This document shows positions 25,568 through 49,044 of a DNA stretch of 64,000 bases, piece after piece. The notes under the pieces were generated by a model. That model was not told the DNA's origin and searched no databases. It was given only the letters and a program-made list of their open reading frames with translations. Source of the DNA: Acidipila sp. (GTDB taxonomy: Bacteria; Acidobacteriota; Terriglobia; Acidiferrales; UBA7541); assembly GCA_010365215.1 (NCBI GenBank), contig JAAFGT010000009.1, positions 1 to 64,000 on the forward strand, in the 5' to 3' direction. Made by a program: the position numbers and the translations under genes. Every line of letters begins with the position of its first letter. The first letter of the stretch is position 1.

Positions 25568-25632
25568 GCCGTGGGTTACGCATGCGGATCGAAAAAGGTT
25601 CCTCGCTTCCCAGGAGTGCGAGGGGAAAATGA

Positions 25633-26535
25633 CTAAAGGCCGCGGGAGAGGAGGAATTCGCGCACCACATCGCGCGCTTCGCGGCGTTCCCCATCGACGG
25701 CGTAGTTCATGCGACGCATATCGGCGTCTGAAATCCTGCCGGCCAGGCTGAGCAGTGCCTGGCGCAGAGCCGGCACGCGCTCAAGAGTTGCCACGCGCAC
25801 CACGGGCACGGCTTCGTAGGGCGGAAAATATCCCCGGTCGTCATCGAGCACGGTCAGGTTGAGCGCCGCGATCAGCCCGTCGGTGGAGTTGCCGGCGACG
25901 ACGTCCACCTGTTTATCCTTCAACGCGCGGTACAGCAGGCCCAGGTCCATGAGCCTGGGAGCTTCGCGAAATTTCAGTCCATAGGTTTTCGCGAGTCCCT
26001 GGTAGCCGTCGGGCCGCTCGATGAATTCGTAACCCACGCCGAGCCGCCAGTCGGGTGCGAGTGCGGCGATTTGCGACAGCGCAGTCAGGTGCAGCCGGCG
26101 CGCATCGTCACCACGCACGACGATGGCGAAAGTATTGTTGAACCCCAGCGGCGGCAGCACTTCCAAGCCGAAGCGGCGCGCATATTCGTCGCGCACCAGC
26201 TTGTAGACTTCCTCGCGGCCGGGCTGCGGCGGCTGTTTGAGAATCGCGGTTAACGCAGTGCCGGTGTATTCCACGTACGCATCGATGCGGCCGGCCAGAA
26301 TGGCCTGGTGGCAGATGTAACTTCCGGCGAGGTAGAAGCGCCGTTCCACGGGCAGCCCGGTAGCAGCTTCGATGCGTTGCGCCAGCAGCTCGCCGAGCAC
26401 GGACTGTTCGGTAAAATTCTTGGAACCGATGACGACTGGCCGCTGCCGGGACCCGGTGCAGGCTCCCTGCAAGCAAGCCGCGAGAACAAGGCCGAGCAGC
26501 GCCTTCAGGATCACCGGGCGCGTGGGGATGGCCAC
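25633..26535 (-). CDS. Osmoprotectant-type ABC transporter substrate-binding lipoprotein
   Basis: 300 residues. Lipoprotein-like signal ending LQGAC (Cys ~26). The mature part begins VVIGSKNFTEQSVLGELLAQ, the hallmark of the OpuAC/OsmF quaternary-amine binding family, followed by YVEYTGTALTAIL. It is the third gene of a compact importer operon (ATPase, permease, binding protein) and starts 2 bp after the permease. Likely ligands are glycine betaine, choline or related compounds; the sequence alone does not distinguish them. Confidence 0.92.
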   Translation of the reverse strand: MAIPTRPVILKALLGLVLAACLQGACTGSRQRPVVIGSKNFTEQSVLGELLAQRIEAATGLPVERRFYLAGSYICHQAILAGRIDAYVEYTGTALTAILKQPPQPGREEVYKLVRDEYARRFGLEVLPPLGFNNTFAIVVRGDDARRLHLTALSQIAALAPDWRLGVGYEFIERPDGYQGLAKTYGLKFREAPRLMDLGLLYRALKDKQVDVVAGNSTDGLIAALNLTVLDDDRGYFPPYEAVPVVRVATLERVPALRQALLSLAGRISDADMRRMNYAVDGERREARDVVREFLLSRGL

Positions 26536-26537
26536 GA

Positions 26538-27173
26538 TCAGCGCCCGTGCTCGAGCCGCCGCGCGATGAAGCCCAGCGTCTGATCCGCAAGGATGGCCAG
26601 TGCGGCTGCGGGAAACGCGCCAGCCAGGATCAGCTGGTTATTGACCATGGCTACGCCCCTGAAAATGAACTCGCCCAGGCCACCCGCGCCAACCGCGGCG
26701 GCAATGGTTGCCGTGCCCACGGAGATCACCGCGGCCACTCGTATGCCCGCAACAATCACGCCCAGCGCCAGGGGAAGCTCAACGCGAAAGAGAAGTTGCT
26801 GGTCGGTCAGCCCCATGCCGCGACCCGCTTCCACCACGGCGCGATCCACTCCGCGAATTCCGGTGTAGGTGTTGCGCAGAATCGGCAGCAGCGCGTAGAG
26901 CGTCAGCGCAAGTATGGTCATTCTTTCCGCGCGCGCGCCCAGCCACGGTAGTGGCATAAAAAAACCGAACATCGCCAGGCTGGGAATGGTTTGCAGAATA
27001 TTCGCGCCAAAGAGCACGGGCCTGGCGAAAGCCGGGCGCCTGGCGAGGAGTACACCCAACGGCAAACCAACGGCTACGGCAAATAAGACGGCCAACCCCA
27101 CCAGCCAGATGTGCTCGAGCGTGAGCGTCAGCACTTCATGACGGTTGCGCCAGAAGAAACTCATCAGGCTCAT
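26538..27173 (-). CDS. Osmoprotectant-type ABC transporter permease
   Basis: 211 residues with five to six membrane helices. The EAA loop region reads VVEAGRGMGLTDQQLLFRVELPLALGVIVAG (in two parts around residues 110-140), typical of ProW/OpuBB permeases. TLEHIWLVGLAVLFAVAVGLPLG at the N terminus is also characteristic. Its start overlaps the ATPase stop by 4 bp. The binding protein is separate rather than fused. Confidence 0.93.
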   Translation of the reverse strand: MSLMSFFWRNRHEVLTLTLEHIWLVGLAVLFAVAVGLPLGVLLARRPAFARPVLFGANILQTIPSLAMFGFFMPLPWLGARAERMTILALTLYALLPILRNTYTGIRGVDRAVVEAGRGMGLTDQQLLFRVELPLALGVIVAGIRVAAVISVGTATIAAAVGAGGLGEFIFRGVAMVNNQLILAGAFPAAALAILADQTLGFIARRLEHGR

Positions 27174-28051
27174 TTAGCTTCTCCCTCTACCCGTGGAATT
27201 CCACTGGCATGTTTCCGTACGTTGTCGAGAGCTGCGCCGCCGGCCTCGAATCCGGAATGGAAGGCCTTTACATATGCAGCGGGCAAGGGGTCGTTAGCTT
27301 GAAGGAACTCGGCCGGCGAATAGAGCCCGTGCAAACGCCCGGCTTCCAGTAACGCGATGCGCGTGCCCATCAGCAACGCTTCTGGCAGATCGTGCGTAAC
27401 CAGCACGACGGTTTTCTTGGGGCGTATCTCCAGCGCGGCGAATTCACGTTGAACTTCGGCGCGGGTCAATGCGTCCAGGGCACCAAAGGGCTCGTCCATC
27501 AGGAGAATCGGCGGATCGAGCGCCAGAGCACGCGCCACGCCCACGCGCTGGCGTTCGCCGCCGGAAAGCTCCCGCGGAAAGCGCGCGGCGAGCTCCGGCT
27601 GGAGACCCACCAGGACCAGCAATTCGCGAACGCGCTCGCGTATTCGCGCCGCGGGCCAGCCTTCTACGCGGGGCATCAGTCCGATGTTGCGCTCGACGGT
27701 CATGTGCGGAAATAACCCGACTTCCTGGATGGCGTAGCCGATGCTGCGGCGCAAGCGGATAGGATCCCAGGCAGTGGTGGCCTGGCCCTCCACCAGCACT
27801 TGGCCGCCAGTGGGCTCGAGTAAGCGGTTAATCAGCTTCAGGGTGGTGGTTTTCCCCGATCCGCTGCGGCCGAGCAGCACGAGCGATTCCCCGCGGCGCA
27901 CGCTGAGATCAAGCGGAGCAAGAAGGGTACGCCCCGGACCGTGCTCGGCATCAGGCACGGAGTAGGACGCGGCGCGAAATTCGATTACGGTGTTGCGGGA
28001 AACCTCGGTGTTGCTCGCTGGCGAGAAATTATTTTGTGGACTGGGCGGCAT
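27170..28051 (-). CDS. Osmoprotectant-type ABC transporter ATP-binding protein
   Basis: 293 residues from the ATG at 28051. It has Walker A GRSGSGKTT, signature LSGGERQRVG, Walker B ILLMDEPFGALD and the switch His in VLVTHDLPEAL. The Q-loop reads YAIQEVGLFPHMTV. No CBS domains follow. The frame stays open to a TTG at 28150, but that triplet is the beginning of a perfect TTGACA -35 box, so the shorter start is preferred. No good ribosome-binding site precedes either start. It energises uptake with the two downstream genes. Confidence 0.9.
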   Translation of the reverse strand: MPPSPQNNFSPASNTEVSRNTVIEFRAASYSVPDAEHGPGRTLLAPLDLSVRRGESLVLLGRSGSGKTTTLKLINRLLEPTGGQVLVEGQATTAWDPIRLRRSIGYAIQEVGLFPHMTVERNIGLMPRVEGWPAARIRERVRELLVLVGLQPELAARFPRELSGGERQRVGVARALALDPPILLMDEPFGALDALTRAEVQREFAALEIRPKKTVVLVTHDLPEALLMGTRIALLEAGRLHGLYSPAEFLQANDPLPAAYVKAFHSGFEAGGAALDNVRKHASGIPRVEGEAK

Positions 28052-28121
28052 GGTAGGTGTGCGAGATAAGTGATGTGCGATCCCCGCCGGCAAGGATTGG
28101 CGCGGGGAATAGTAGGGTGAG

Positions 28122-28150
28122 AGCCTACTTTTGCGCGGGTCCGGTGTCAA
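28122..28150 (-). promoter_or_regulatory. Putative sigma70-type promoter of the osmoprotectant importer
   Basis: On the minus strand, TTGACA (28150-28145) and TAGGCT (28127-28122) are separated by 17 bp. The -35 box is perfect and the -10 box matches three of six positions. It lies 71 bp upstream of the preferred ATPase start. Confidence 0.45.
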
Positions 28151-31739: not shown

Positions 31740-31768
31740 CGACTGCGTAGCCAACCTACTTACCTGAA

Positions 31769-31804
31769 GGGGAGTCTGATAAACTCAGACTCCCTTTTTC
31801 TTTT
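31769..31804 (+). terminator. Intrinsic terminator of the TonB-receptor gene
   Basis: Perfect 10-bp stem GGGAGTCTGA (31770-31779), loop TAAAC, TCAGACTCCC (31785-31794), then TTTTTCTTTT to 31804. The T-tract runs directly into the ATG of the next gene at 31805, leaving no separate leader for it. Confidence 0.92.
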
Positions 31805-33751
31805 ATGAAGCGCGACCTCATCGCCTGCGTTTTGCTTTCGTTTCTGTTGCCTCGGATGGCCGGGGCGGCGGAAAAGACCAACGTCATTCTGATTACGTTG
31901 GATACGGTGCGGGCGGACCGCATGGGCTTTCTCGGCTCGAAGCGCGGGCTTACGCCTAACCTGGACATGGTTGCCCGCGATGGCGTGGTGTTCGAGCAGG
32001 CCTATTCCCAGGCGCCGCTAACGCCGGTCTCCCACGCGGCCATTTTGACCGGCACCTACCCGCAGTTCCACCAGATCCACAATTTCGGGGATAAATTGAG
32101 CATCAAGCTGCCCTATCTACCTGCAATCTTGAAATTGCGCGGCTACAGTACGGGCGCGTTTGTCAGCTCGATTATTCTGGACCCTAAGAACGGCTTCGCG
32201 CCGGGGTTCGAGCGCGGTTTCGACGTTTACGATGCGGGGTTTCATCGCCAGCGTAAGGGTGAAAACCGGTTTCAGTCCATCCAGCGGCGCGCGGACGATA
32301 CCCTTTCCCACGCTATGCCCTGGCTCGAGAATAATGCCCAGCGGCCGTTCTTCATGTTCCTGCACCTTTGGGACGCTCACGACCCCTACACGCCTCCGGA
32401 GCCCTATAAAACGCGCTACGCCGCAGCTCCTTACGACGGCGAGATCGCGTATCTGGACGCGGCGCTGGGCAAGCTGTTCGCCATGCTGCGCGCCAAGGGA
32501 CTCTATGAGAACACGCTGATTGCGATCATGGCCGATCATGGCGAGGCCCTGGGCGATCACGGAGAAAAGACCCATGGCGTGTTTCTCTACGACGCGACCA
32601 TCCACGTTCCGCTGCTGCTGAAGCTTCCCGGGGCGAAGTTTGCGGGCCGCCGGGTGAAGAGTCGCGTGAGCCTGGTGGACGTTTCGCCCACAATTCTGGA
32701 CCTGGTCCTTGATGCCGTGCCGTCGGTGATGCAGGGGCAATCGCTGATGGGCCTCCTTTTCGCCACGGCAGCGCAAGACCGCCCTTCGTTTGCGGAAACC
32801 GAATATCCCAAGAGCGCGTTCGGGTGGAGCGGGCTCAAGGCGCTGCGCTCGGCCAATTTTCTGTTCGTGAAGGCGCCGCAGCAGGAGCTTTACGACCTGG
32901 CGGCGGACCCGGCGGAGAAGACAAACCTCGCGGGTACCAGCAAGGCTGCGGCGTCGCGGCTCTCGAGCCAGGTGGAAGATTTTCTCAAGCGCACGAGCTC
33001 CAGCGCCACCGCCGCGAGTGAATCGGCGATGGACCCGAAAGATGTGGAGAAGCTCACCGCATTGGGCTACGTAGGCGCCAGCCACTCAGCCAGGCAGGGT
33101 GGTAGCAACATTGACCCCAAAGCGCATATTCAGATCGCGAATCAGCTCCACGACGCAAACCTGGACATCGAAGACAATCGGCTCGAGGTTGCCCTGCCGC
33201 TGCTGCAACGCGTAGTAGCCAGCGACCCGCAGATCTATACGGCGCAGTATTATCTCGGCGTGGCTTACGCGAAGCAGAGAAAGTTTGCCGAAGCGATTCC
33301 GCCACTGCACAAAGCCATCGAGCTGCAGCCGGATTCCACCCTGGCGCACTACGAAATGGGCCTGGCGCTCTTTGAGACCGGCGACTGGAAGACGGCTGCC
33401 GTACACTTCGAGATCGTGGTGAACAAGAATCCCAAATGGGTGGATGCGCGCTACTCGCTGGCTTCGGTATATGCGCGCATTGACCGCGTTGCCGATGCTG
33501 CGGCGCACCTGGTGCTGGTCATTGAGGAAGAGCCTAACCACTTCCGCGCAAATCTTTTGCTCGGCCGGATCCTGACGCTTAAGGGGCAGCCCGATGCGGC
33601 CGTGCCCTATCTGGAGAAGGCAGTGAAGGTCCAGGCGGATTCCGCGGAGGCCAATGCCTTCCTGGCGGACGCGTACGAAAGGTTGGGAAGAACCGCGGAC
33701 GCTGCTGCCGCCCGCGCTCGCGCCGGCGCGCTGCGGCGCAAGCTGCAATAG
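31805..33751 (+). CDS. Sulfatase-like (alkaline phosphatase superfamily) protein with C-terminal TPR repeats
   Basis: 648 residues. Signal peptide 1-21 (ending AGAA). Sulfatase fold ~24-400 has metal-site motifs VILITLDTVRADRMG at the start and MADHGEALGDHGEKTHG later. The nucleophile position, normally Cys/Ser of CxPxR, reads TPVSH (Thr73), so a formylglycine cannot form. Activity may be phospho- rather than sulfo-directed, or transferase-like. A linker with EKLTALGYVG leads to about five TPR repeats (~455-645). There is no ribosome-binding site, because the upstream terminator's T-tract touches the ATG. It is followed after 3 bp by the first phosphodiesterase gene. Exported. Confidence 0.88.
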   Translation: MKRDLIACVLLSFLLPRMAGAAEKTNVILITLDTVRADRMGFLGSKRGLTPNLDMVARDGVVFEQAYSQAPLTPVSHAAILTGTYPQFHQIHNFGDKLSIKLPYLPAILKLRGYSTGAFVSSIILDPKNGFAPGFERGFDVYDAGFHRQRKGENRFQSIQRRADDTLSHAMPWLENNAQRPFFMFLHLWDAHDPYTPPEPYKTRYAAAPYDGEIAYLDAALGKLFAMLRAKGLYENTLIAIMADHGEALGDHGEKTHGVFLYDATIHVPLLLKLPGAKFAGRRVKSRVSLVDVSPTILDLVLDAVPSVMQGQSLMGLLFATAAQDRPSFAETEYPKSAFGWSGLKALRSANFLFVKAPQQELYDLAADPAEKTNLAGTSKAAASRLSSQVEDFLKRTSSSATAASESAMDPKDVEKLTALGYVGASHSARQGGSNIDPKAHIQIANQLHDANLDIEDNRLEVALPLLQRVVASDPQIYTAQYYLGVAYAKQRKFAEAIPPLHKAIELQPDSTLAHYEMGLALFETGDWKTAAVHFEIVVNKNPKWVDARYSLASVYARIDRVADAAAHLVLVIEEEPNHFRANLLLGRILTLKGQPDAAVPYLEKAVKVQADSAEANAFLADAYERLGRTADAAAARARAGALRRKLQ

Positions 33752-33754
33752 ATT

Positions 33755-35824
33755 ATGGCCTCTCCGCTGCTTTCGCGGCGCAAACTCTCTTACTCTGCCT
33801 GGGCTCACGGCGCACGTCCTTGGGTTTCGCGCTGGCAGATTGGCGCGGTGCTGGCGCTTAGCCTTGCGGCTTTTGCCGCGTGCCGGCTGGGCACTGCGTC
33901 CGGAAATTTTGCCGCTTCGGCTGGCGCGCAGAAACAGGTGATGGTCCTGGGCATCGATGGCATGGACCCGCAACTCCTGGAACGGTTCATGGCCGCGGGC
34001 AAGATGCCGAATTTTTCCCGCCTCGCCGCCGCGGATGGCGTTCACCGGCTGGGCACCAGCAATCCGGCGCAGAGTCCGGTGGCCTGGTCCAACCTGATCA
34101 CCGGGATGAATCCTGGCGGGCACGGAATTTTTGATTTTATCCATCGTGATCCGGCAACGCTCGCGCCGTTTCTGTCGACCTCCCGGGTGGAACCGCCCAA
34201 GCACTCGATTTCCATCGGCAGTTGGGTGTTCCCTGTTTCCAGCGGCCATACACTGCTGCTGCGCCATGGCAAGGCGTTTTGGGAATATCTCGATGAGCAT
34301 AAAATCCCCGCGCTGATTTATCGCATGCCGGCAAATTTTCCTCCGGTGGCCACGAAGGCGCGCACGCTATCGGGCATGGGCACGCCGGACGTGCTGGGTA
34401 CCTACGGGACGTTCTCGTTTTATACCGACGATCTTTTCTTTCCTTCGGGCACGGTGAATGGCGGACGAGTCTATCCGGTAACTCTGGAACATTCGCGCGT
34501 CTCCGCAAAGCTTTACGGCCCGTACAACACGTTTCGCGAGGGCGATCCGCAATCTTCCGTGGATTTCGCCGTGGTGGTGGACCCGGCATCACCGGTAGCG
34601 AAAATTTCCCTGCAGGGACATGATTTACTCCTCGCTGAGGGGGAGTGGAGCGCCTGGATCCCGGTGACCTTCGACCTGCTGCCGCATCTCGCCAGCGTTA
34701 AAGGCATCTGCCGGTTCCATCTTCGCCAGGTGCATCCGCGCTTGCAGCTCTACGTCACCCCGGTAAATATGGACCCCGCAGATCCGGCGCTGCCCATCTC
34801 CACGCCCGACGCGTATGCGCGCGAACTCGACGAGGATCTGGGACCGTTCTACACCCAGGGAATTGCGGAGGACACCAAGGCGCTATCCACCGGCGTATTC
34901 GCGGACCAGGACTACCTGCAACAAGCCCAACTGGTGCTTGCCGAACAGTCACGCGCCTTCGACCGCGAGCTCGGGCGCTACCGAGCAGGGCTTTTCTTTT
35001 TTTATTTCTCGAGCATTGATCTGAATTCGCACATGTTCTGGCGGGCCATGGACCCACATCATCCCGGTTATTCGGCGGAGGCCGGCGAGAAATATGGCGC
35101 GGTCATCGAACAGCTCTATACCGAGATGGATAAAGCGCTGGGCAAAGCGCAGGCACGGCTGGGCCCGCAGGGCACGCTGGTGGTGCTCTCCGATCACGGC
35201 TTTGCTCCTTACTACCGTTCGTTTAATCTCAACACCTGGTTGCTCGAGCAAGGCTACATCGCGCTGCAGCCAGGGGCCGAGCGCTCCGGCGATTACTTCG
35301 CGCACGTCGACTGGGCGCACACCCGCGCGTATGGCCTGGGCTTGAACGGGCTCTATCTGAATCTGCGTGGCCGGGAGCGAGACGGAGTGGTGACGCCGGG
35401 TATGGAAGCGAACGCTTTGCTGGATGAAATCCGCGCACGGCTGCTTGCGCTGCGCGATCCCGCTTCCGGCGCTACGCCCATCACGCGCATCGACAAAGCT
35501 ACCGAAGCCTACAGCGGCCCGTACGTTTCCGAAGCGCCGGACTTGTTGATTGGATACAATCGCGGATACCGCGCGGGCTGGGGCACGGTGCTGGGAAGTT
35601 TTCCCGAGGGAATCCTGGAAGATAATCTTGATCCCTGGAGCGGCGACCACTGCATGGATTTCACGCTGGTTCCCGGAATTCTGGTCAGCAATCGTAAACT
35701 GACAGCGCAATCGCCGGCGCTCACCGACGTAGCGCCTACCATCCTCGCGGAATTCGGCATCGCGCGGCCGCAACAAATGTCCGGCCGCGCGCTATTTTCA
35801 CCAGTTTCGCCGCCGCGCCCCTAG
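33755..35824 (+). CDS. AP-superfamily phosphodiesterase/phosphohydrolase (COG3379-like), paralogue 1
   Basis: 689 residues. Basic N terminus, one hydrophobic segment (~29-43) ending in FAAC, so it is probably exported as a lipoprotein or anchored. The catalytic domain starts VMVLGIDGMDPQLL. The nucleophile position is Ser107 in AQSPVAWSNLITG, followed by PGGHGIFDF. The second metal motif is VVLSDHGFAPYY and the third is WSGDHCMDFTLVPG. The central FPP...GTPDVLGTYGTFSFYT region and YVTPVNMDP are shared with paralogue 2. COG3379-type proteins are annotated as predicted phosphohydrolases or phosphomutases; substrate is unknown. It lies 3 bp after the sulfatase-like gene. Confidence 0.85.
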   Translation: MASPLLSRRKLSYSAWAHGARPWVSRWQIGAVLALSLAAFAACRLGTASGNFAASAGAQKQVMVLGIDGMDPQLLERFMAAGKMPNFSRLAAADGVHRLGTSNPAQSPVAWSNLITGMNPGGHGIFDFIHRDPATLAPFLSTSRVEPPKHSISIGSWVFPVSSGHTLLLRHGKAFWEYLDEHKIPALIYRMPANFPPVATKARTLSGMGTPDVLGTYGTFSFYTDDLFFPSGTVNGGRVYPVTLEHSRVSAKLYGPYNTFREGDPQSSVDFAVVVDPASPVAKISLQGHDLLLAEGEWSAWIPVTFDLLPHLASVKGICRFHLRQVHPRLQLYVTPVNMDPADPALPISTPDAYARELDEDLGPFYTQGIAEDTKALSTGVFADQDYLQQAQLVLAEQSRAFDRELGRYRAGLFFFYFSSIDLNSHMFWRAMDPHHPGYSAEAGEKYGAVIEQLYTEMDKALGKAQARLGPQGTLVVLSDHGFAPYYRSFNLNTWLLEQGYIALQPGAERSGDYFAHVDWAHTRAYGLGLNGLYLNLRGRERDGVVTPGMEANALLDEIRARLLALRDPASGATPITRIDKATEAYSGPYVSEAPDLLIGYNRGYRAGWGTVLGSFPEGILEDNLDPWSGDHCMDFTLVPGILVSNRKLTAQSPALTDVAPTILAEFGIARPQQMSGRALFSPVSPPRP

Positions 35825-35868
35825 GCCTACGACGTGGCCGTGTGGCATTCGGCGAGTGGAGGAGTGCT

Positions 35869-36072
35869 ATGTTCGGAAATCGCGTGAAGATCGATGACGG
35901 GTTGCTAATGAAGGCGAAAAAATGTTCGGAGCTTGCCGGCTATGCTGACGTCGAGGAGTTCGTCAACCACGTACTCGAAAAGGAAATTACAAAAATCCTG
36001 GGTTCCGACGACGAGCAACAGTCCGACGCGGAAGTTAAGAAACGACTGCAGGGGCTGGGCTACATCGAATGA
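35869..36072 (+). CDS. 67-residue protein, RHH-like helix pattern and LGYIE tail, function unknown
   Basis: The start at 35869 is chosen because GGAGGAG lies five bases upstream; the frame extends 27 bases further without one. NRVKIDDGLLMKAKKCSELA followed by GYADVEEFVNHVLEKEI has the strand-helix-helix pattern of ribbon-helix-helix proteins. An acidic linker and a C-terminal KKRLQGLGYIE follow. That tail resembles EKLTALGYVG of the sulfatase-like protein two genes upstream. It lies between two phosphodiesterase paralogues, so a role as adaptor or regulator of the cluster is possible. DNA binding is not shown. Confidence 0.75.
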   Translation: MFGNRVKIDDGLLMKAKKCSELAGYADVEEFVNHVLEKEITKILGSDDEQQSDAEVKKRLQGLGYIE

Positions 36073-36152
36073 CGGTTCGCCGCCAGGTTCGCACGACTGC
36101 GCCGTTTGCGCGAGTTCCTGCGCGAAAGGGCAACCGAGGCGGCGGCTGAGGC

Positions 36153-36983
36153 ATGAGGTTGCTCATTTCTGCGGTCAATGCGGCCGCGAACGGCGTCTGC
36201 GAAATTCTATTTGCGTCATTGCGCGGCCTTCCTCCCCTGGTGGCGCTTGGCATCATCGCGTTTCTCACCGGCGCGGTAATGCTACTGGCCTATAAGTTCA
36301 CTTCCAATCAACGCTCGATTGGGCGCGCCAAAGACGTGATGCAGGCCCACGTGCTGGCGGTGAGACTCTTTCAGGATCAAATTGGTGTGGTGTTGCGCTC
36401 TTACGGACGAATCCTGCGGGCGACGTTCGGCTACCTGCGCCTTTCCCTGGTGCCGCTGCTGGTGATGTTTATCCCGCTTACGCTTCTGCTGATTCAACTG
36501 GAGGCGCGATTCGCTTACCGTTCACCGCGCATTGGCGAGCCGTTTCTAGTTACCGTTCGCGTGGCGCAGCCGCAAGATGTCGCTGGCGTATCGCTGGAAA
36601 CTCCCGCGGGACTGGCGCTGACAGCGCCGCTGTTACGGGACGCGGAGGGCCGCGAAGTCGTCGCGCGCCTCGAGGCGCGACAGGCGGGGAGCTGGAATTT
36701 GCTGGTGCGTCTCGCCGGGAGCGAATCGAAGAAGCAGCTTATCGTCAGCGAACGGCTGGAGAGTCTTTCGACGGAGCGCGTGAGTCCCGGAATACTGGCG
36801 AGATTATTGAATCCTTTGGAAGATCCTTTGCCGGCCGGCTCTCCGGTAATCGCCATCGCGGTAGACTATCCGGAACGGCGCATCGCGCTGGGACGATTTA
36901 ACCTCAACTGGATGGTGACTTTTTTCGTTTTGTCGCTCCTTGCCGGCCTAGCGTTGAAGCGCCCGCTGCGAGCAGACTTTTGA
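36153..36983 (+). CDS. Three-TM membrane protein with long cytosolic helices and beta domain, function unknown
   Basis: 276 residues. Membrane segments are at ~24-46 (PPLVALGIIAFLTGAVMLLA), ~92-113 (VPLLVMFIPLTLLLIQL) and ~250-268. Between the first two is a basic helical stretch (QRSIGRAKDVMQAHVLAVRLF and VVLRSYGRILRATFGYLR). Between the last two is a beta-rich domain of ~130 residues (EPFLVTVRVAQP, then ARLEARQAGSWNLLVRLAG). TM1-helical hairpin-TM2 loosely recalls the Oxa1/EMC3/DUF106 superfamily, but this is inference from topology only. It sits between phosphodiesterase paralogues and starts 81 bp after the small gene. Confidence 0.75.
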   Translation: MRLLISAVNAAANGVCEILFASLRGLPPLVALGIIAFLTGAVMLLAYKFTSNQRSIGRAKDVMQAHVLAVRLFQDQIGVVLRSYGRILRATFGYLRLSLVPLLVMFIPLTLLLIQLEARFAYRSPRIGEPFLVTVRVAQPQDVAGVSLETPAGLALTAPLLRDAEGREVVARLEARQAGSWNLLVRLAGSESKKQLIVSERLESLSTERVSPGILARLLNPLEDPLPAGSPVIAIAVDYPERRIALGRFNLNWMVTFFVLSLLAGLALKRPLRADF

Positions 36984-37013
36984 CCGCGTAGTTCGGACGA
37001 GGCTATCGAATTA

Positions 37014-39134
37014 ATGCAGAGAACGGTCCACAAACGGAAAGCGCTTTTCGCGGGATTGGCCGCGGCCACGCTGATTCTGGCGACGCCGGTAGTGGCTGCG
37101 GCTTACGTGGGTCCGGGCGCGGGCTTCGCCGTGCTCTCATCGTTTCTCACACTATTCATTGCCTTCCTCTATTCCCTTCTCGCGCTGGTCACCTGGCCGA
37201 TTCGTCAGTTGCTCCGCTGGCGGCGCCGGCGACGCGCTTATCAGCGCGCGCGAGTCGAGCGAGCGGTGATCGTCGGCTTTGACGGCATGGATCCGGAGCT
37301 GGCAACGCGCTGGATGGACGAAGGCAAACTACCTCATCTTGCTCGCTTGCGCGATCAGGGCACATTTCGCAAGCTGGCCACCACCTTTCCGCCCATCTCG
37401 CCGGTGGCGTGGTCTACGTTTCTGACCGGTGTCAACCCCGGCAAGCACAACATTTACGATTTTCTCGCGCGAAATCCTGCCAACTATCTGCCTTATCTTT
37501 CCTCGGCGCAGATTGGCGATTCCGGGCGCCGTTTGAAAATTGGAAAATGGTCCCTGCCCATCGGCCGGCCGAAGATGCGGTTGCTGCGCAAGTCCAAGCC
37601 TTTCTGGAACCTGCTCGGCGATGCGGGAGTTTTCTCTTCCGTGCTGCGGGTACCCATCACTTTTCCTCCCGAGAAATTTCAGGGCGTGCTTCTCTCCGGG
37701 ATGTGCGTGCCGGACCTGTGCGGCAGCCAGGGCACATTTTATTTCTACTCCAGCAGCACGGCGACGAATGCGTTTGAAGAAGGCGGCGTGCGTTTACGCC
37801 TGCAGAAGAACCCCAAAAGCGGCCGGGGATTCGCCGGCACTATCCCCGGGCCTGGGAATAACGGAGGTTCGGAGACGCGCTGTCCCTTCACGCTGGAGGC
37901 GCGCGACAAGAAGAGTGAGTGCGTTCTGGAAATCGAAGGCCAGCGTTATACGCTGCGGATGGGCGAATACTCGGAATGGATTGAAGTGAGCTTTCGCGCC
38001 GGCCGGGGCTCGCGCGCGCGCGGTATCTGCCGGTTCCTGCTGAAGCAACTGGCGCCCGATGTCGAGGTTTACGTCACCCCGGTGAATATCGATCCGCGCC
38101 GCCCGGCATTGCCTATTTCGCATCCGCTGTCTTATTCGGTGTACCTGGGAAAACTGCTCGGGCCTTACGCCACGCTGGGGCTGGCGGAAGATACCTGGGG
38201 ACTCAATGAAGGCGTGCTCGACGACAATTCATTTCTCGAGCAGTGCTACCTGATTCACGACGAGCGCGAGAAAATGTTTTTTGATGCGCTGGAAAAAACC
38301 GCTCGCGGCGTGTGTATCTGCGTTTTTGACATTACCGACCGCGTGCAACACATGTTCTGGCGTTACCTGGAAAAAGACCATCCCGCCGCCGAAGCGACTG
38401 CCGGCGCGCCGCAGCGTCGTGACGCCATCGAGCAGATGTACGTGCGCATGGACGCTCTGGTGGGACGGGTGATGGAGCAAGTGGACGACAAGACGCTGGT
38501 GTTGGTGGTGTCCGACCACGGCTTCCAGTCTTTCGCTCGCGGCGTCAACCTCAACCGCTGGCTGCTGGATAACGGTTATCTGGCACTGAAAGACGGGGCC
38601 ACGGGCACGCACGACTGGTTCGCCGACGTCGACTGGTCGAAGACGCAGGCCTTCGCCATGGGACTCAATGGCATCTACGTCAATCAGCGGAACCGCGAGC
38701 GCGACGGCATCATCGAACCGGGGAAAGACACGCAGGAATTAATACGCGAGCTTTGCGCGAAACTTACCGGCCTGGCCGATCCAGCTTCGGGTCAGGTTGG
38801 GGTCACCGAGGTGTTTGACCGGCGCAACGTTTACAACGGCCCGTACGTTGACGGGTCGCCCGATCTGGTGATTTGCTACGCGCGCGGCTACCGCGCGGCC
38901 TGGGAATCCGTGAAGGGACAAGTGGCCGGCGAGATTTTTTCAGACAATAACAAAGCCTGGAGCGGCGATCACTGCATCGACCCGCGCCTGGTTCCCGGAG
39001 TGCTATTCTCCAATCATAAAATTGAGGCCGCAGCGCCGGCCATTGTGGACGTGGCGCCGACGATGCTCGAACTCTTCGGCGTGAAGCTTCCCGCACACTT
39101 TGATGGCAAAGCGTGGAGCATTTCAACTTTGTAA
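37014..39134 (+). CDS. Membrane-anchored AP-superfamily phosphodiesterase (COG3379-like), paralogue 2
   Basis: 706 residues. A signal-like hydrophobic segment (~10-30) ends in AAAYVGPGAG. A second helix (~37-63) is followed by a strongly basic stretch (RQLLRWRRRRRAYQRARVER). By the positive-inside rule this puts the catalytic domain in the cytoplasm. The catalytic core has VIVGFDGMDPEL, nucleophile Ser129 in PISPVAWSTFLTG, VVSDHGFQSF and WSGDHCIDPRLVPG. It is about 40% similar to paralogue 1 by eye, sharing LSGMCVPD, GTFYFY and YVTPVNIDP. It ends 17 bp from the convergent paralogue 3. Substrate unknown. Confidence 0.85.
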   Translation: MQRTVHKRKALFAGLAAATLILATPVVAAAYVGPGAGFAVLSSFLTLFIAFLYSLLALVTWPIRQLLRWRRRRRAYQRARVERAVIVGFDGMDPELATRWMDEGKLPHLARLRDQGTFRKLATTFPPISPVAWSTFLTGVNPGKHNIYDFLARNPANYLPYLSSAQIGDSGRRLKIGKWSLPIGRPKMRLLRKSKPFWNLLGDAGVFSSVLRVPITFPPEKFQGVLLSGMCVPDLCGSQGTFYFYSSSTATNAFEEGGVRLRLQKNPKSGRGFAGTIPGPGNNGGSETRCPFTLEARDKKSECVLEIEGQRYTLRMGEYSEWIEVSFRAGRGSRARGICRFLLKQLAPDVEVYVTPVNIDPRRPALPISHPLSYSVYLGKLLGPYATLGLAEDTWGLNEGVLDDNSFLEQCYLIHDEREKMFFDALEKTARGVCICVFDITDRVQHMFWRYLEKDHPAAEATAGAPQRRDAIEQMYVRMDALVGRVMEQVDDKTLVLVVSDHGFQSFARGVNLNRWLLDNGYLALKDGATGTHDWFADVDWSKTQAFAMGLNGIYVNQRNRERDGIIEPGKDTQELIRELCAKLTGLADPASGQVGVTEVFDRRNVYNGPYVDGSPDLVICYARGYRAAWESVKGQVAGEIFSDNNKAWSGDHCIDPRLVPGVLFSNHKIEAAAPAIVDVAPTMLELFGVKLPAHFDGKAWSISTL

Positions 39135-39150
39135 TGTGAGGTAAGGCGAT

Positions 39151-40539
39151 TTACCGCGGCTGCGTTTGCGGCGCCAGCGACCTGCCTTGCATCAGTTTGG
39201 GAATTTTGTAGCCTGCCAAGTCCATCATGGTAGGGGCCATGTCCAGCAACTTCGCGCCCTGGTATTCGCCGCGCAATGCCAGGTTCGGCGCCACGAGAAT
39301 GAATGCGCCAAATTGGGCGTGGTTGCAAGCGTCCGGGCCGGTATCGTTTTCCTGCACATGGAATCGCCCATGGCCCACGCTGCCGATCGAACGCCAGTAC
39401 AGACCGCCAAAATGCACGATCAGGTCCGGAGCTACGTTGCGCACGTGGCGATAGATCTCGGTGGGCTTGAATACCAGTGAATTGAGCGGTTCGCCGCGGT
39501 CGTCGCGCAATGCCAGAAACCTGGCCTTCATTTCATCCTGAAACGCCGGATAATCCACCGCGGGAATAATCCCCTGCGGCTCGCGGCCTTGCATGTTAAA
39601 AAACACGCGCGCGTAATAGCCGCCTTCGCTCCACACTTTGGTTTTCGACCAATTCACTTTCAGCTTATCGAACGGGGTGATTTCCGTGGGCATCTCCTCC
39701 ACGACCAACAGGCCTTCGTGGATCAGCCATTCATTCACGGCGAAGCCGCCATCCAGGCGCTGCGCACCGTGGTCCGAGACCACCAGCAGCACGGTGTCCG
39801 CAGGCAAAGCCTGAAGCACGATGCCGATCTGCTGGTCGAGCCAGCGGTAATATTCGGGGATTACATCCTCGTAGGGATTGCCCGCCTGGTACTGCACGTG
39901 TTTCTTGTCGAAGAAATTCCAGAAGCCGTGATGCACGCGATCGAGGCCGATGTCCACGAAATGAAAATAGTCCCAGGGCTGCTCTTTCATCAGCCAGTGG
40001 ACCACCTTCCACTGCTTGCGGCTCATCTCGAAAATCTGCTTCTTCAGCCAGCCTTTGTCGTCGGTGCGGAAGCCTTTGACATCCACCGGATATTCGCCGA
40101 CCAACTCGTTGATTTTTGTTTTCAGCGCAGCCGGATGAGTGAACTCTTTATCTTTCGTATTAGGCGTCAAAAAGCATCCGATGCTGATGCCGTGGATCCG
40201 CCGGGGCGGATAGCCTGGCGGCACACCCACCACGATGGATTTTTTTCCATCGCGCGCCAGGTAATCCCAGATAGCGGGCTGCTCGATGGAATCAGCGTTG
40301 GTGATGCCCAGCTTGTCGTAGGAGTGGTCGCGGCGATTGCGAAACCCGTAGACCCCCAGCGATCCGGGATCTTGGCTGGTGGAGAGGCACATCCAGGCCG
40401 GCACGGTGATCGGCGGAATCACACTTTCCAGGCGGCCGTACGTGCCGCGGGCCATCAGGGCGCGGATATTTTTGAGGCGCGGGTCACCGAGCAGAACTTC
40501 AGGTGCGGCGCAGTCCAGTCCGATAACGCAAATTTTCAT
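39151..40539 (-). CDS. Cytoplasmic AP-superfamily phosphodiesterase (COG3379-like), paralogue 3
   Basis: 462 residues from MKICVIGLDCAAPE; the frame continues 13 codons upstream without support. There is no signal or membrane segment. The nucleophile position is Thr45 in PPITVPAWMCLSTS, followed by DPGSLGVYGFRN. Metal motifs are DIGLDRVHHGFW and VVSDHGAQRLDGG. A histidine-containing CNHAQFGAFILVAP stretch precedes the conserved DMAPTMMDLAG end. It is the most compact of the three paralogues. It is convergent with paralogue 2, and the amidohydrolase lies upstream on the same strand. Confidence 0.85.
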   Translation of the reverse strand: MKICVIGLDCAAPEVLLGDPRLKNIRALMARGTYGRLESVIPPITVPAWMCLSTSQDPGSLGVYGFRNRRDHSYDKLGITNADSIEQPAIWDYLARDGKKSIVVGVPPGYPPRRIHGISIGCFLTPNTKDKEFTHPAALKTKINELVGEYPVDVKGFRTDDKGWLKKQIFEMSRKQWKVVHWLMKEQPWDYFHFVDIGLDRVHHGFWNFFDKKHVQYQAGNPYEDVIPEYYRWLDQQIGIVLQALPADTVLLVVSDHGAQRLDGGFAVNEWLIHEGLLVVEEMPTEITPFDKLKVNWSKTKVWSEGGYYARVFFNMQGREPQGIIPAVDYPAFQDEMKARFLALRDDRGEPLNSLVFKPTEIYRHVRNVAPDLIVHFGGLYWRSIGSVGHGRFHVQENDTGPDACNHAQFGAFILVAPNLALRGEYQGAKLLDMAPTMMDLAGYKIPKLMQGRSLAPQTQPR

Positions 40540-44747: not shown

Positions 44748-45470
44748 TTATGCGCGATCGGATCCGTGCGCGCCGCCGAACGAAGAAGTTTCAGACTTTT
44801 GAATTCCATCGCGCATGGTTTCTTCACGCCGGCTCAGGAGACGCGTCAGGCAGGCTCGAGTAGCCGTCTTTTTCACGTCTTCCGCGAGGAAATGCCGCAG
44901 ATCCGCTTCATCGTCAAGATCAAGCTCGATGCGCGGGTTTCGAACCACCTCCGTGCTTGCTCCGGCTCTCCGCGCCTCTGCGAGGTGTTTGGACAGACTG
45001 CCCGGGCCAAAATGAGAAGGAAACAGAGACGGCGGAGTTCGCAACAGCGCATTCGTCCCTTGACCATCGCGCGAGGGCACCACGATTACAGAAGGGCCTT
45101 CGACCGCCGCGTGGAGCAGGCTTTCGATGTCGCCAGGTTCAATCAAAGGGATGTCGATGGGCAGGCGGAGAAGCGCATGAACGCCGCGCTCCTGGCACAA
45201 TCGCGAGGCATAATCCACCGACCGGCTTTCCGAAAGTTGTGCGTCCTCCGGGAAAACATTCCACCCCAGACTTTGCGCGCGTGCCAGGGCCAGCGCATCG
45301 CTCGAAACCAGGTACACGGCATCAACGCCGCGCGCGGCATTTACCGCGGCAAAAACGTCATCCATCATCGCGCGCGCCAGCGTGGTGCGCTCGACTTGTG
45401 ACAACAGTCCTGCCATACGCTGTTTGGCGAGCGTGAGGTCTTTCACCGGGATCAAGACGGCGCGCGTCAT
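44748..45470 (-). CDS. cofC: Phosphoenolpyruvate/2-phospho-L-lactate guanylyltransferase (F420 synthesis)
   Basis: 240 residues. The nucleotidyltransferase start AVLIPVKDLTLAKQRMAGLL holds the Lys-rich loop of CofC/FbiD. Later motifs are YLVSSDALALARA, LLRLPIDIPLIEPGDIE (metal-binding Asp region), DGQGTNALL and NPRIELDLDDEADL. The enzyme makes the GDP-activated three-carbon precursor. Whether it uses PEP, phospholactate or 3-phosphoglycerate is lineage-dependent and not readable here. It overlaps the cofD stop by 4 bp and is last in the cof run. The C terminus has ~30 extra residues. Confidence 0.93.
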   Translation of the reverse strand: MTRAVLIPVKDLTLAKQRMAGLLSQVERTTLARAMMDDVFAAVNAARGVDAVYLVSSDALALARAQSLGWNVFPEDAQLSESRSVDYASRLCQERGVHALLRLPIDIPLIEPGDIESLLHAAVEGPSVIVVPSRDGQGTNALLRTPPSLFPSHFGPGSLSKHLAEARRAGASTEVVRNPRIELDLDDEADLRHFLAEDVKKTATRACLTRLLSRREETMRDGIQKSETSSFGGAHGSDRA

Positions 45471-46441
45471 TCTGAGCTCATCACTTGCCCGACGGCAGGT
45501 GCGGCAACGGCTCGAGGGCCAAATAATGCGAGAACCACCCGGGCCAGACGATCCTTGTCCTCATCCCGCCGCATCACCGAAGGTTCCACCACCACCTTTA
45601 TTCCCACCGCCTCGATAGCCGATTGCAGCGGCGCGTCCGCAATATCGATTAGCAGCGTACCGACGATGTCCGAATAGAGGTTGGCGACGCCGAGCGATGT
45701 CGCTTCGCAGCCGCACTGCGCCATCATCCGGTCTGACGGCCCTTTCAGCGAACGCCCGGCAACCAACGGCGACACGGCCACCACGCGCTCTCGAAGGTCC
45801 CAGAGTTTTTCGCGAATTCCAGCGACAGCAAGAATCGGGCCCAGGCTGATCAACGGATTGCTGGGACAAAAAATAATCGCCTCGGCGGCATCGAGCGCTT
45901 CCAGCACGCCCGGCGCGGGCCGCGCATTTTCGATCCCCTCGAAATGGATGTCCAGCACTTCGGGCTCGGCGCGATGCTGGACTAAATATTCCTGAAAATG
46001 CATCTCGCCGCGCGAAGTGACGATGATGGTGGGCACCGGATCGTTGCTCATCGGCAGAATCGCAGCAGACACTCCCCAGGCGCGGCGAATTGAATCCGCT
46101 GCCTGGGTTAGCGTGGCACCGCTGGCCAGCAGCGCAGTGCGATGGATATGGGTGGCCAGGTCGCGGTCGCCCAGGTTGAACCATACCGGCCTGCCATACC
46201 GGCCAAGCACTTCGAGCGCGCGAAACGTGTCGCCCGAAATTCCCCAGCCGGTATCGGTGTTCACTGCGCCAGCCAGCGTGTAGGTAACGATGTCGAGGTC
46301 GGGCGAAATATGCAGCCCGTGCATGCGGATGTCATCGCCAGTGTTGACGATGATGGTCAGCTCGCTGGGGTCCATAGCGCGCGCCAGGCCCCAAAGCAGC
46401 TTGGAAGCGCCCACTCCGCCGGCTAGCGCCACGACGCGCAT
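45467..46441 (-). CDS. cofD: 2-phospho-L-lactate transferase (F420 synthesis)
   Basis: 324 residues. The N-terminal nucleotide-binding loop is VALAGGVGASKLLWGLARAM. INTGDDIRMHGLHISPDLD and YTLAGAVNTDTGWGI motifs follow, and FCPSNPLISLGPIL lies mid-protein. It transfers the GDP-linked moiety to the deazaflavin FO to form (dehydro-)F420-0. It shares one base with cofH upstream and overlaps cofC downstream, so it is tightly coupled. Normal length for CofD/FbiA. Confidence 0.95.
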   Translation of the reverse strand: MRVVALAGGVGASKLLWGLARAMDPSELTIIVNTGDDIRMHGLHISPDLDIVTYTLAGAVNTDTGWGISGDTFRALEVLGRYGRPVWFNLGDRDLATHIHRTALLASGATLTQAADSIRRAWGVSAAILPMSNDPVPTIIVTSRGEMHFQEYLVQHRAEPEVLDIHFEGIENARPAPGVLEALDAAEAIIFCPSNPLISLGPILAVAGIREKLWDLRERVVAVSPLVAGRSLKGPSDRMMAQCGCEATSLGVANLYSDIVGTLLIDIADAPLQSAIEAVGIKVVVEPSVMRRDEDKDRLARVVLALFGPRAVAAPAVGQVMSSE

Positions 46442-47709
46442 CAGTAGCTCGTCCCGGTATAGGGTGCGTGCACGGGAGCGCCGGCAATGCGCAGGCGCGG
46501 CGTGATGGAATCACCCGAATCTTCCGCCGGGAAAAGTTGGCGGATTTTATAGGTGGTGGTGCGCTCGGCGGGAATTCGACCGATGTGCCGGATCATGGCG
46601 CGAAATTCCTGGGGAGCCACGTACTCGCCGAAGTCCGCGCCGGCCATCTTGGAAATGCTTTCTTCCATCAACGTGCCGCTGAAGTCATTGGCGCCCGCCT
46701 GCAAGCAGGCCAGCGAGCCCTCGAAGCCCATCTTTACCCAGGAGACCTGCAAGTTTTTGATCCAGCCATGCAGCAGCAATCGCGATACCGCGTGCACGAT
46801 GAGGTGCTCGCGCCGCGTCGCACCCGGTCGCGCCTGGCCCTCGTGGAAGAGCCGCGTCTTGTCGTGAACAAATCCCAGTGGCACAAACTCGGTGAACCCG
46901 CCAGTCTGTTTTTGAATGTTGCGCAACAGCAGGATGTGGCGCAGCCATTGCGCCCGGTTCTCCACGTGGCCGTACATCATCGTGCAGGTGGTAGGCAAGC
47001 CGAGCTCATGCGCTGCGGTAACGATTTCCACCCATTGGGCGGCTTTTAGTTTGTTAGGGCTGAGCAGGTCGCGCACCTGATCATCCAGAATTTCCGCGGC
47101 CGTGCCGGGAATGCTGCCCAAGCCTTCGGCTTTCAGCATGGCCAGATATTCGCGCAGCGGCAAACCTGTTTTCTCCACGCCGTAAGCGATCTCCATGGGC
47201 GAGAACGCGTGGATATGCATTTCCGGCAGCACGCGCTTGATGGCGCGGAGAATATCGCGATAGAAATAGCCGTCGAGGTCTTTGGGGAGTCCGCCTTGAA
47301 TGCAAACCTCGGTGGCGCCGCGCTGGTGCGCCTCGATGGCTTTGGCCGTCACTTCTTCGAGGGAGAGAAAATAAGCATCCGCGGCACGCGGCCCGCGGCT
47401 GAAACCACAAAACGAGCAGCCTACCACGCAGATGTTGGTGAAGTTGATGTTGCGGTTCACTACGTAAGTGATTACCTCGCCCACGGCGCGCCGGCGCAGT
47501 TCGTCCGCAGTCTTCACCAGGGCAGTGAGGTCGGCTCCATCCACCTGGGCGAGCGCCACACCTTCTTCGAGGCCCAATTCGCGATCGCCGAGCGCACGGT
47601 CAAGGATCCGCGCAACGGGCTGTGATGCGTTGCGTAAGGCGTCGTGGAGCGAACCGGTCACGAGTTGGAGCCCGGGGAAGGAGCCGACAGGCTGGGTAAT
47701 CTGCCCCAT
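46441..47709 (-). CDS. cofH: FO synthase subunit 2, radical SAM (F420 synthesis)
   Basis: 422 residues from the ATG at 47709, one base after the cofG stop, with GGGAGA eight bases upstream. The frame extends further but overlaps cofG. Radical-SAM cluster CVVGCSFCGF (CxxxCxxC) is preceded by YVVNRNINFTNI. IQGGLPKDLDGYFY and SPMEIAYG are the usual CofH/MqnE-group motifs. With CofG it couples 5-amino-6-ribitylaminouracil and tyrosine into FO. CofG and CofH are separate proteins here, as in archaea, not fused as in actinobacterial FbiC. MqnC/E-type enzymes are the main alternative; the neighbours exclude it. Confidence 0.94.
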   Translation of the reverse strand: MGQITQPVGSFPGLQLVTGSLHDALRNASQPVARILDRALGDRELGLEEGVALAQVDGADLTALVKTADELRRRAVGEVITYVVNRNINFTNICVVGCSFCGFSRGPRAADAYFLSLEEVTAKAIEAHQRGATEVCIQGGLPKDLDGYFYRDILRAIKRVLPEMHIHAFSPMEIAYGVEKTGLPLREYLAMLKAEGLGSIPGTAAEILDDQVRDLLSPNKLKAAQWVEIVTAAHELGLPTTCTMMYGHVENRAQWLRHILLLRNIQKQTGGFTEFVPLGFVHDKTRLFHEGQARPGATRREHLIVHAVSRLLLHGWIKNLQVSWVKMGFEGSLACLQAGANDFSGTLMEESISKMAGADFGEYVAPQEFRAMIRHIGRIPAERTTTYKIRQLFPAEDSGDSITPRLRIAGAPVHAPYTGTSY

Positions 47710-47710
47710 G

Positions 47711-48904
47711 TCAATTTTCTCCCAAGCGCGCATAACCATCCGCGCCGGCATGTCGTGCGAATTCGGCGCACACGCGCTCGGCCAGAAAACCGCTACGCTG
47801 AGCAAACTCCGGATAGAGCGCCAGCCGCTCGCGAAGTTCGAGCCCGGCCGCCGCGGTCTTTTCGGCAAGCGTAGAGATCTGCGGCCAGGCCGCTTCGGGA
47901 TTGATGAAGTCCAGCGTCACCGGCGAAATCCCGCCCCAGTCGTTGATCCCCGCATCCAGCAGGCGGGGAAAATCTTTATAGCTCAGGTTGGGTGGAGCTT
48001 GCAGATTTATTTCGCCGCCCAGCAAGAGCCGCGCCAGCGCCAGCGTGCGCAGCAGATCTTCGAGCCCGGCATCGGCATGTGCCGCGAACGGTGTATCCGG
48101 CTTGGCGCGAAAATTCTGCACGATCACTTCCTGGATGTGGCCGTAGCGTTGGTGCAGCGCGCGAATGGCCAATAAGGAATCCACTCGCTCTTTCAGGGTT
48201 TCGCCAATGCCGATTAGAATGCCCGTGGTGAAAGCGATCTGCTGGCGCCCGGCTTCCTCGATCGTGCGCAAGCGCAGAGCCGGCACTTTGTCCGGCGCAT
48301 GCCAATGGGCCATGCCTTTTTTCAGCAGCCGCGGGCTTAGCGTCTCGAGCATGATGCCCATGCTGGCGTTTGATTCCTTCAGCGCGGCCAAATCGTCGCG
48401 GCCCATCACGCCAGGATTGGCATGAGGCAGCAGGCCCGTGCGCTCCAAAACCATCCTGCACATCGCTGCCAAGTAGGCCAAAGTCGTGTCAAAGCCCTGC
48501 GAGCGCAAAAAATCGCGCGCTTCCGGGAAAATGCGTTCCGGTTGATCGCCGAGGCTGAATAGCGCTTCCTTGCATCCGGCGCGGCGCCCGCGCTCGGCCA
48601 GCGCGAGAACTTCGTCGGGAGTCATGAAGTGCGCGCCGGGCTGGCCGGGATCTTTACGAAAGGTGCAGTAGCCGCAGTAATCACGGCACAGCGTAGTGAG
48701 AGGAATAAAAACTTTTTTGGAATAGCTGACTGAGCGGCCCTTGGCCCGCGCACGCAGGCGGCAAGAGGCCTGCAACAATGCGGAAGTTTCTGCCTGCTCC
48801 ATCAGCGCAAGCGAATCCTCTTGGGAGAGCCCCTGGCCCTGCTCACCGCGAGCCAGCAAACGCTCAACGTTGCCGGGCCGAGCCGAGATGGAAGCCGTGG
48901 CCAT
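47711..48904 (-). CDS. cofG: FO synthase subunit 1, radical SAM (F420 synthesis)
   Basis: 397 residues. Radical-SAM motif CRDYCGYCTF (CxxxCxxC) follows SKKVFIPLTTL. EALFSLGDQPE, LPHANPGVMGRDDL and FTTGILIGIGET are typical of CofG. NDWGGISPVTLDFINPEAAWP near the C terminus is a strong family marker. The first ~45 residues are an extra helical segment. Upstream, a 140-bp gap with a short tandem repeat separates it from cofE. Confidence 0.95.
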   Translation of the reverse strand: MATASISARPGNVERLLARGEQGQGLSQEDSLALMEQAETSALLQASCRLRARAKGRSVSYSKKVFIPLTTLCRDYCGYCTFRKDPGQPGAHFMTPDEVLALAERGRRAGCKEALFSLGDQPERIFPEARDFLRSQGFDTTLAYLAAMCRMVLERTGLLPHANPGVMGRDDLAALKESNASMGIMLETLSPRLLKKGMAHWHAPDKVPALRLRTIEEAGRQQIAFTTGILIGIGETLKERVDSLLAIRALHQRYGHIQEVIVQNFRAKPDTPFAAHADAGLEDLLRTLALARLLLGGEINLQAPPNLSYKDFPRLLDAGINDWGGISPVTLDFINPEAAWPQISTLAEKTAAAGLELRERLALYPEFAQRSGFLAERVCAEFARHAGADGYARLGEN

Positions 48905-48930
48905 CAGTTCATGTTCCTTTACGCATTTTC

Positions 48931-48968
48931 TTGCAGTTCATCCCTTGCAGCTCATCCCTTGCAGCTCA
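48931..48968. repeat. 14-bp tandem repeat between cofE and cofG
   Basis: TTGCAGTTCATCCC (48931-48944), TTGCAGCTCATCCC (48945-48958) and a partial third TTGCAGCTCA (48959-48968). On the minus strand each unit includes GGGATGA. It lies in the 140-bp gap upstream of cofG. It may have no function beyond spacing; no hairpin is evident. Confidence 0.8.
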
Positions 48969-49044
48969 TGCGCATCGTTCTTCCGGCGGCGCTGTCATTA
49001 TTCGGCAATGATGGGTTGCGGTGCTTAGTTTTTTGCCCACTCGC

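Follow-up and report, generated by a model that had tools for sequence, protein, structure and literature searches.

What task keeps four enzymes of the alkaline phosphatase (AP) superfamily together with a small protein and an unfamiliar membrane protein? The question is raised by a block of six genes at positions 31805-40539 of a 64,000-nucleotide stretch of contig JAAFGT010000009.1 from Acidipila sp., here called the window. An earlier note on this DNA had described four AP-superfamily genes and two accessory genes, with plus-strand gaps of 3, 44, 80 and 30 bp, and had proposed a phosphodiester- or sulfate-bearing surface polymer or lipid headgroup as substrate. All six genes and the gaps were confirmed at the positions given there. 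The genes encode P0002, a sulfatase-fold protein with tetratricopeptide repeats (TPRs), P0003 (AP1), the accessory proteins small and mem, P0006 (AP2) and P0007 (AP3). AP2-AP1-small-mem is best described as a dedicated partner of 3'-phosphoadenosine 5'-phosphosulfate (PAPS) metabolism, most likely for sulfating a surface or membrane-linked molecule. We put the probability at about 0.5 that a sulfation pathway using PAPS has its membrane-bound half in this block.

A conserved unit of four genes

The mem gene is present in 75 of 297 Acidobacteriota genomes. The 75th match (G207) is weak and was excluded from the co-occurrence counts, which thus compare 74 genomes with 223. AP2, AP1, small and mem are clustered with few gaps in 40 Acidobacteriota loci, usually in the order AP2-AP1-small-mem, and in the order AP1-small-mem-AP2 in the window and its relatives. 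The same unit is found in 20 Planctomycetota loci, in a few of which one gene is cut off or was not found. With AP1 as query, the genome collection yielded 80 loci spread over more than 20 lineages, as judged by record titles, including Aminicenantes, Dadabacteria, Nitrospirota, Poribacteria, Planctomycetota, Lentisphaerae, Krumholzibacteria, Omnitrophota, Zixibacteria, Fibrobacter and others. Of these loci 69 contain mem and 65 contain small; many of the others end at contig edges, and three (L085, L117 and L147) have AP1 with flanking sequence and no mem. One locus carries a tandem pair of AP1 genes within the block (L124:7771-11846).

Wherever the contig permitted a check, no mem gene lacking AP1 or AP2 nearby was found in approximately 130 loci. 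This agrees with the idea of the earlier note that small and mem are dedicated accessory genes of the phosphodiesterase paralogues; the opposite pattern, mem and small without phosphodiesterase neighbours, was not seen in the loci examined. Since AP2-AP1-small-mem recurs across phyla, the genes of the block have not come together by chance. These four genes are the invariant core, whereas the TPR "sulfatase" (relatives near the block in 22 of the 80 loci) and P0007 often accompany it but vary between loci.

NCBIfam has no name for small, mem or the neighbouring sulfotransferase described below, and no description of a system combining AP1/AP2 with such membrane and small proteins was found in the open-access literature searched. 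A role in anti-phage defence was considered and rejected, as PADLOC gave no match. Modification of teichoic or phosphoethanolamine-type polymers, by analogy with LtaS and EptA, was also considered and set aside; no such genes recur in the listed clusters.

Link to PAPS synthesis and a neighbouring sulfotransferase

In several lineages the core is located within the same gene run as genes for PAPS synthesis. In L036 the order is Sat-CysC-AP3'-AP2-AP1-small-mem, and other runs contain CysD-CysN-AP3'-AP2 (L035, L056), CysC-CysD-CysN-AP2 (L042, L071) or CysC-AP3'-AP2 (L110, L115). CysD and CysN directly follow mem in L096 and L114, and a Sat-CysC fusion is encoded upstream of the block in L050 and L118. 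The arrangement small2-Sat-CysC-AP2-AP1-small-mem is recurrent in Planctomycetota, where APS (adenosine 5'-phosphosulfate) kinase is encoded 5-8 kb from mem in at least 21 of the 40 genomes with mem; a rough binomial estimate for this is far below 1e-30.

The association is also seen in genome content. APS kinase is encoded by 70 of the 74 Acidobacteriota genomes with mem vs 94 of 223 others (p=2e-17), or, counted by genus, by 40 of 44 with mem vs 74 of 124 (p=5e-5). The corresponding numbers for Planctomycetota are 39 of 40 and 119 of 195 (p=5e-7), and 18 of 22 mem genomes from other lineages encode it. As related genomes are not independent, the genus-level result and the agreement across phyla weigh more than the p-values.

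Members of the AP3 family are located between Sat and CysC in L157, L161, L162, L163 and L169, and such runs continue in several cases with apparent sugar-nucleotide genes. Neighbours named here as CysQ-like, sugar-nucleotide or glycosyltransferase genes were assigned by eye from their first residues. Together with small2, a second protein of the small type encoded upstream of Sat in several genomes, and with the APS kinase fusions described below, these arrangements tie both small and P0007 to PAPS enzymes in other genomes, as judged from gene context. The Sat and CysC genes of the window's own genome lie downstream of what appear, by eye, to be glycosyltransferase and epimerase genes.

A sulfotransferase family of approximately 205 amino acids (A5), not encoded in the window, accompanies many of the loci. 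All 11 of 11 members match PF13469 and PF00685; the 5'-phosphosulfate-binding (5'-PSB) loop reads GLPRSGTS with an invariant R22, and the Ser of the 3'-phosphate-binding (3'-PB) motif, S112, is invariant as well. Among Acidobacteriota the family is found in 36 of 74 mem genomes vs 10 of 223 others. In 28 of these 36 its gene is no more than 14 kb away from mem, and there it mostly lies close to AP2 or immediately downstream of mem. A member of the family also follows mem in two loci from other phyla (L094, L102).

PAPS genes that share a cluster with a sulfotransferase have been called a hallmark of the synthesis of sulfated polysaccharides (PMC11641403). The block loci resemble dedicated sulfation clusters, such as those for marine sulfated capsules with cysNDC or that of RaxST, in having PAPS-making genes near a 5'-PSB/3'-PB sulfotransferase. 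Nod-factor sulfation is a further dedicated sulfation system. In contrast, the AP1/AP2 pair, the mem protein and the small-type proteins were not found described for any known sulfation cluster. The PAPS linkage and the adjacent sulfotransferase support the sulfate-bearing substrate suggested in the earlier note, and we consider a link of the block to sulfation very probable.

The membrane protein mem

mem (36153-36983, plus strand) encodes 276 amino acids and had not been assigned to a recognised family in the earlier note. This has to be revised. A profile of 41 members gave a single match in PDB, MJ0480, an archaeal YidC-like protein (E 4.3e-9), with a collinear alignment that starts at the first helix and continues across the cytosolic hairpin to the second transmembrane segment (TM2); in a second, weak stretch at TM3 the invariant Trp253 of mem is aligned with a Trp of MJ0480. 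A second profile, from an alignment dominated by other lineages, matched MJ0480 at E 2.1e-9, a third, of the helical part alone, did so at 3e-9, and MJ0480 was the only credible match of the three profiles among 177,635 PDB sequences. PF01956 (EMC3_TMCO1), a set of archaeal proteins, EMC3 and TMCO1 in PMC8675477, was matched by 14 of 41 members at E<=0.1 and by 9 of 42 at E<=0.01, the best E being 3.8e-7; the window protein alone gave no PF01956 match.

The AlphaFold model of mem (pLDDT 96) has helices at residues 2-21, 28-50, 53-72, 77-121 and 253-267. The first is the N-terminal helix, TM1 spans 28-50, TM2 extends to 121 after a hairpin, and TM3 (253-267) is preceded by a beta domain at residues 130-238. 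Model and hydropathy both give a three-TM core in which a helical hairpin separates TM1 from TM2; the inferred topology places the hairpin in the cytosol and the immunoglobulin-like (Ig-like) beta domain in the periplasm. This order of elements (amphipathic helix, TM1, cytosolic hairpin, TM2, TM3) is the one tabulated in PMC8675477 for the Oxa1 superfamily, that is DUF106/MJ0480, EMC3, TMCO1, GET1 and YidC. Given the profile match to MJ0480, the core of mem is probably of the Oxa1/EMC3 type, with an Ig-like domain inserted on the extracytoplasmic side.

A helical part of the model without TM3 gave no significant Foldseek match. A positive residue in the membrane groove is conserved in every YidC homologue (PMC8920935). 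As the groove charge of YidC is absent from mem, and Foldseek gave no Oxa1 protein among the matches listed, we refer to mem as Oxa1-superfamily-like and not as YidC. Unlike YidC, which has an extra TM hairpin between TM2 and TM3, mem carries the Ig-like domain there, and unlike the archaeal members, EMC3 and TMCO1, it is bacterial and sits in an enzyme operon.

These features bear on the possibility that mem is a dedicated insertase or chaperone for the insertion of AP2 or the folding of AP1, with no direct role in sulfation. Members of the Oxa1 superfamily are insertases (PMC8675477, PMC8887752), and mem is found beside AP1 and AP2. Yet AP2, with two hydrophobic segments, and AP1, with a single N-terminal one, are ordinary substrates of Sec, Tat and YidC, the groove charge is not conserved and a large periplasmic Ig-like domain is unusual in insertases. 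We therefore regard this explanation as possible, though on the unlikely side.

The AP-superfamily enzymes

AP1 (33755-35824, plus strand), AP2 (37014-39134, plus strand) and AP3 (39151-40539, minus strand, with ATG at 40539; predicted cytosolic) all match PF01663 in Pfam. AP1, a COG3379-like metal-dependent enzyme, shares 40% identity with AP2 over 626 residues, and AP3 is a more distant paralogue (27% identity). Active-site residues were counted across the AP1 and AP2 families. In AP1 the metal ligands are D68, D422, H426, D480, H481 and H632 with S107 as nucleophile, and these are invariant across 41 AP1 proteins except for one S107T and one X. The corresponding residues of AP2 (D90, S129, D442, H446, D501, H502 and H653) are all invariant in 37 of 37 proteins. 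Judged by sequence, the AP-superfamily active site is complete in both enzymes and has Ser as nucleophile, as in the PF01663/COG3379 phosphodiesterases (NPP, phosphonoacetate hydrolase), which share the six metal ligands and the Ser. Unlike those, AP1 and AP2 are a membrane-linked pair of paralogues kept together with mem and a ribbon-helix-helix (RHH) protein.

By prediction, the two paralogues act on different sides of the membrane and not in one compartment. Many lineages have a Tat signal (RRDF[LI]K) at the start of AP1; in Terriglobales, Dadabacteria and Nitrospirota a lipoprotein-type signal or an N-terminal anchor takes its place, and the N-terminus of the window's AP1 is lipoprotein-like. 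The AP1 domain is thus predicted to be exported to the periplasm. In AP2 proteins the AP domain is preceded by a signal peptide, the motif A-Y-[IVA]-G-P-G-A-G-F (AYVGPGAGF in the window), one TM and a strongly basic stretch. Because the basic stretch follows the TM, the positive-inside rule places the AP2 domain in the cytosol.

Such enzymes could instead be phosphodiesterases or pyrophosphatases that clear the by-products of sulfation, 3'-phosphoadenosine 5'-phosphate (PAP), pyrophosphate (PPi) or nucleotide sulfates, and do not act on the product. The PF01663 assignment with distant PDB matches to NPP phosphodiesterases, the Ser nucleophile and the position of the AP3 family between Sat and CysC are consistent with this. 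PAP and PPi, on the other hand, arise in the cytosol, which fits poorly with the Tat and lipoprotein signals of AP1; CysQ-like genes for that job occur near some loci, and mem would be left unexplained. By-product clearing is accordingly judged unlikely.

P0002 (31805-33751, plus strand) matches the Pfam Sulfatase and TPR families, as its earlier description as sulfatase-like implied. At the nucleophile position it reads T73-P-V-S-H and not the Cys/Ser-x-Pro/Ala-x-Arg motif from which formylglycine (FGly) is made, and it therefore does not belong to the canonical FGly sulfatases. It contains the internal motif EKLTALGYVG.

The small protein and LGY tails

The 67-amino acid protein small (35869-36072, plus strand) had been called RHH-like, and its family bears this out: 13 of 26 members match the RHH_1 profile of Pfam (best 3e-5) and there is weak similarity to NikR, while the window protein alone gave no Pfam hit. 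A GLGY motif near the C-terminus is invariant. In two genomes an APS kinase, scoring above the cut-off of TIGR00455, runs into a C-terminal RHH/LGY domain in a single reading frame (L158:380-1108 and L164:244-1005). The CysC of the window's own genome (L153:9297-10214) ends in an LGY tail only.

The RHH fold would also suit an autoregulatory, DNA-binding repressor of the operon, and the Pfam matches and the NikR similarity are in line with such a role in place of an adaptor. Against this, the related domain is fused to APS kinase, and the LGY tail is common to small, APS kinases and AP proteins. Enzyme-RHH fusions such as PutA can still be repressors, so the fusions are not decisive; a repressor nevertheless seems doubtful to us. 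A role as antitoxin was rejected, since small has no toxin partner and a fixed place within a run of enzyme genes.

Several further observations concern the tail. That of the APS kinases resembles the native APS-kinase C-terminus (KLEEMGYIE). In L118 an APS-kinase relative without P-loop (GPSPALAAS) and with an LGYI tail is encoded at 5014-5562 between AP3 and AP3', downstream of the intact Sat-CysC fusion, and is likely a pseudokinase. Several sulfatase-like proteins and one AP1 have an LxxLGY motif at their C-terminus, and two AP1 lipoproteins carry it close to the mature N-terminus; cytosolic and exported proteins alike contain it (L094, L132, L124, L118, L114, L136, L152). That the Tyr serves as sulfo-acceptor is kept as speculation, as all four residues of GLGY are invariant and both kinds of proteins bear the tail.

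Organisation of the locus

An intrinsic terminator with a 14-pair stem followed by a T-rich tail (31766-31798, plus strand) precedes the first gene, and a terminator scan of the plus strand found none comparable inside the block. It is therefore plausible that the plus-strand genes share one transcript. P0007 is convergent to them and thus outside it. The gaps assume that small starts at ATG 35869, a start which agrees with the family alignment and has AGGAG upstream. Elsewhere in the window, genes for the cofactor F420 (CofD, a CofH-type and a second radical SAM protein, and F420 ligase) are located at 45467-49860, and a MacB/FtsX permease, a glycine-betaine-type binding protein and an ABC ATPase at 23150-28150, both on the minus strand.

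A possible role in sulfation

As membrane-bound half of a sulfation pathway, the block could work as follows. PAPS made by Sat and CysC would feed the sulfation of a membrane-anchored acceptor, either a lipid-linked glycan or a lipid, on which AP2 and AP1 would transfer phosphoryl or sulfuryl groups, or act as hydrolases, at the two membrane faces. By analogy with the lipid scrambling known from Oxa1-family members (PMC10491306), mem may join both enzymes and let the head group of the acceptor cross. The RHH/LGY proteins would be adaptors that tether the PAPS-making enzymes to the membrane complex. In a bolder version, AP2 loads PAPS-derived sulfate on a lipid carrier, mem passes it across the membrane and AP1 gives it to surface glycans; such a sulfuryl relay is a tentative and rather improbable idea.

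Several points weigh against the proposed sulfation role. The Sat-CysC pair of the window's genome is located on another contig (L153, contig C37), half of the mem genomes, that of the window among them, yielded no sulfotransferase A5, and no acceptor gene is constant across the clusters. PAPS reduction in assimilation is not separated from sulfation in the gene counts, most genomes are metagenome-assembled, and the counts include related genomes. For mem, the 50 matches listed by Foldseek for the full model comprised beta-domain folds only and no Oxa1 protein, and alignment A1 has no conserved Lys or Arg of the YidC type inside the TMs. The function of the block is, moreover, inferred wholly from gene context.

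That the PAPS link reflects sulfate assimilation only, in which Sat and CysC are also used, while a phosphodiesterase-like AP/mem module independently processes a phosphodiester polymer, is very unlikely given the PAPS genes within the same gene run, the often adjacent sulfotransferase and the fusion of the RHH/LGY domain to CysC.

It is a real gap that a gene set so widely conserved, in over 20 lineages of bacteria most of which are uncultured, has no name. The sulfation role proposed here would suggest that bacteria of soil and groundwater and planctomycetes have a sulfation pathway that is widespread. If the relay were true, it would mean bacterial sulfation outside the cytosol without export of PAPS, and an Oxa1/EMC3-like protein used for something besides protein insertion. 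mem itself would give bacteria a second branch of the Oxa1 superfamily besides YidC, EMC3/DUF106-like and with an Ig-like domain, which bears on the evolution and capabilities of that superfamily.

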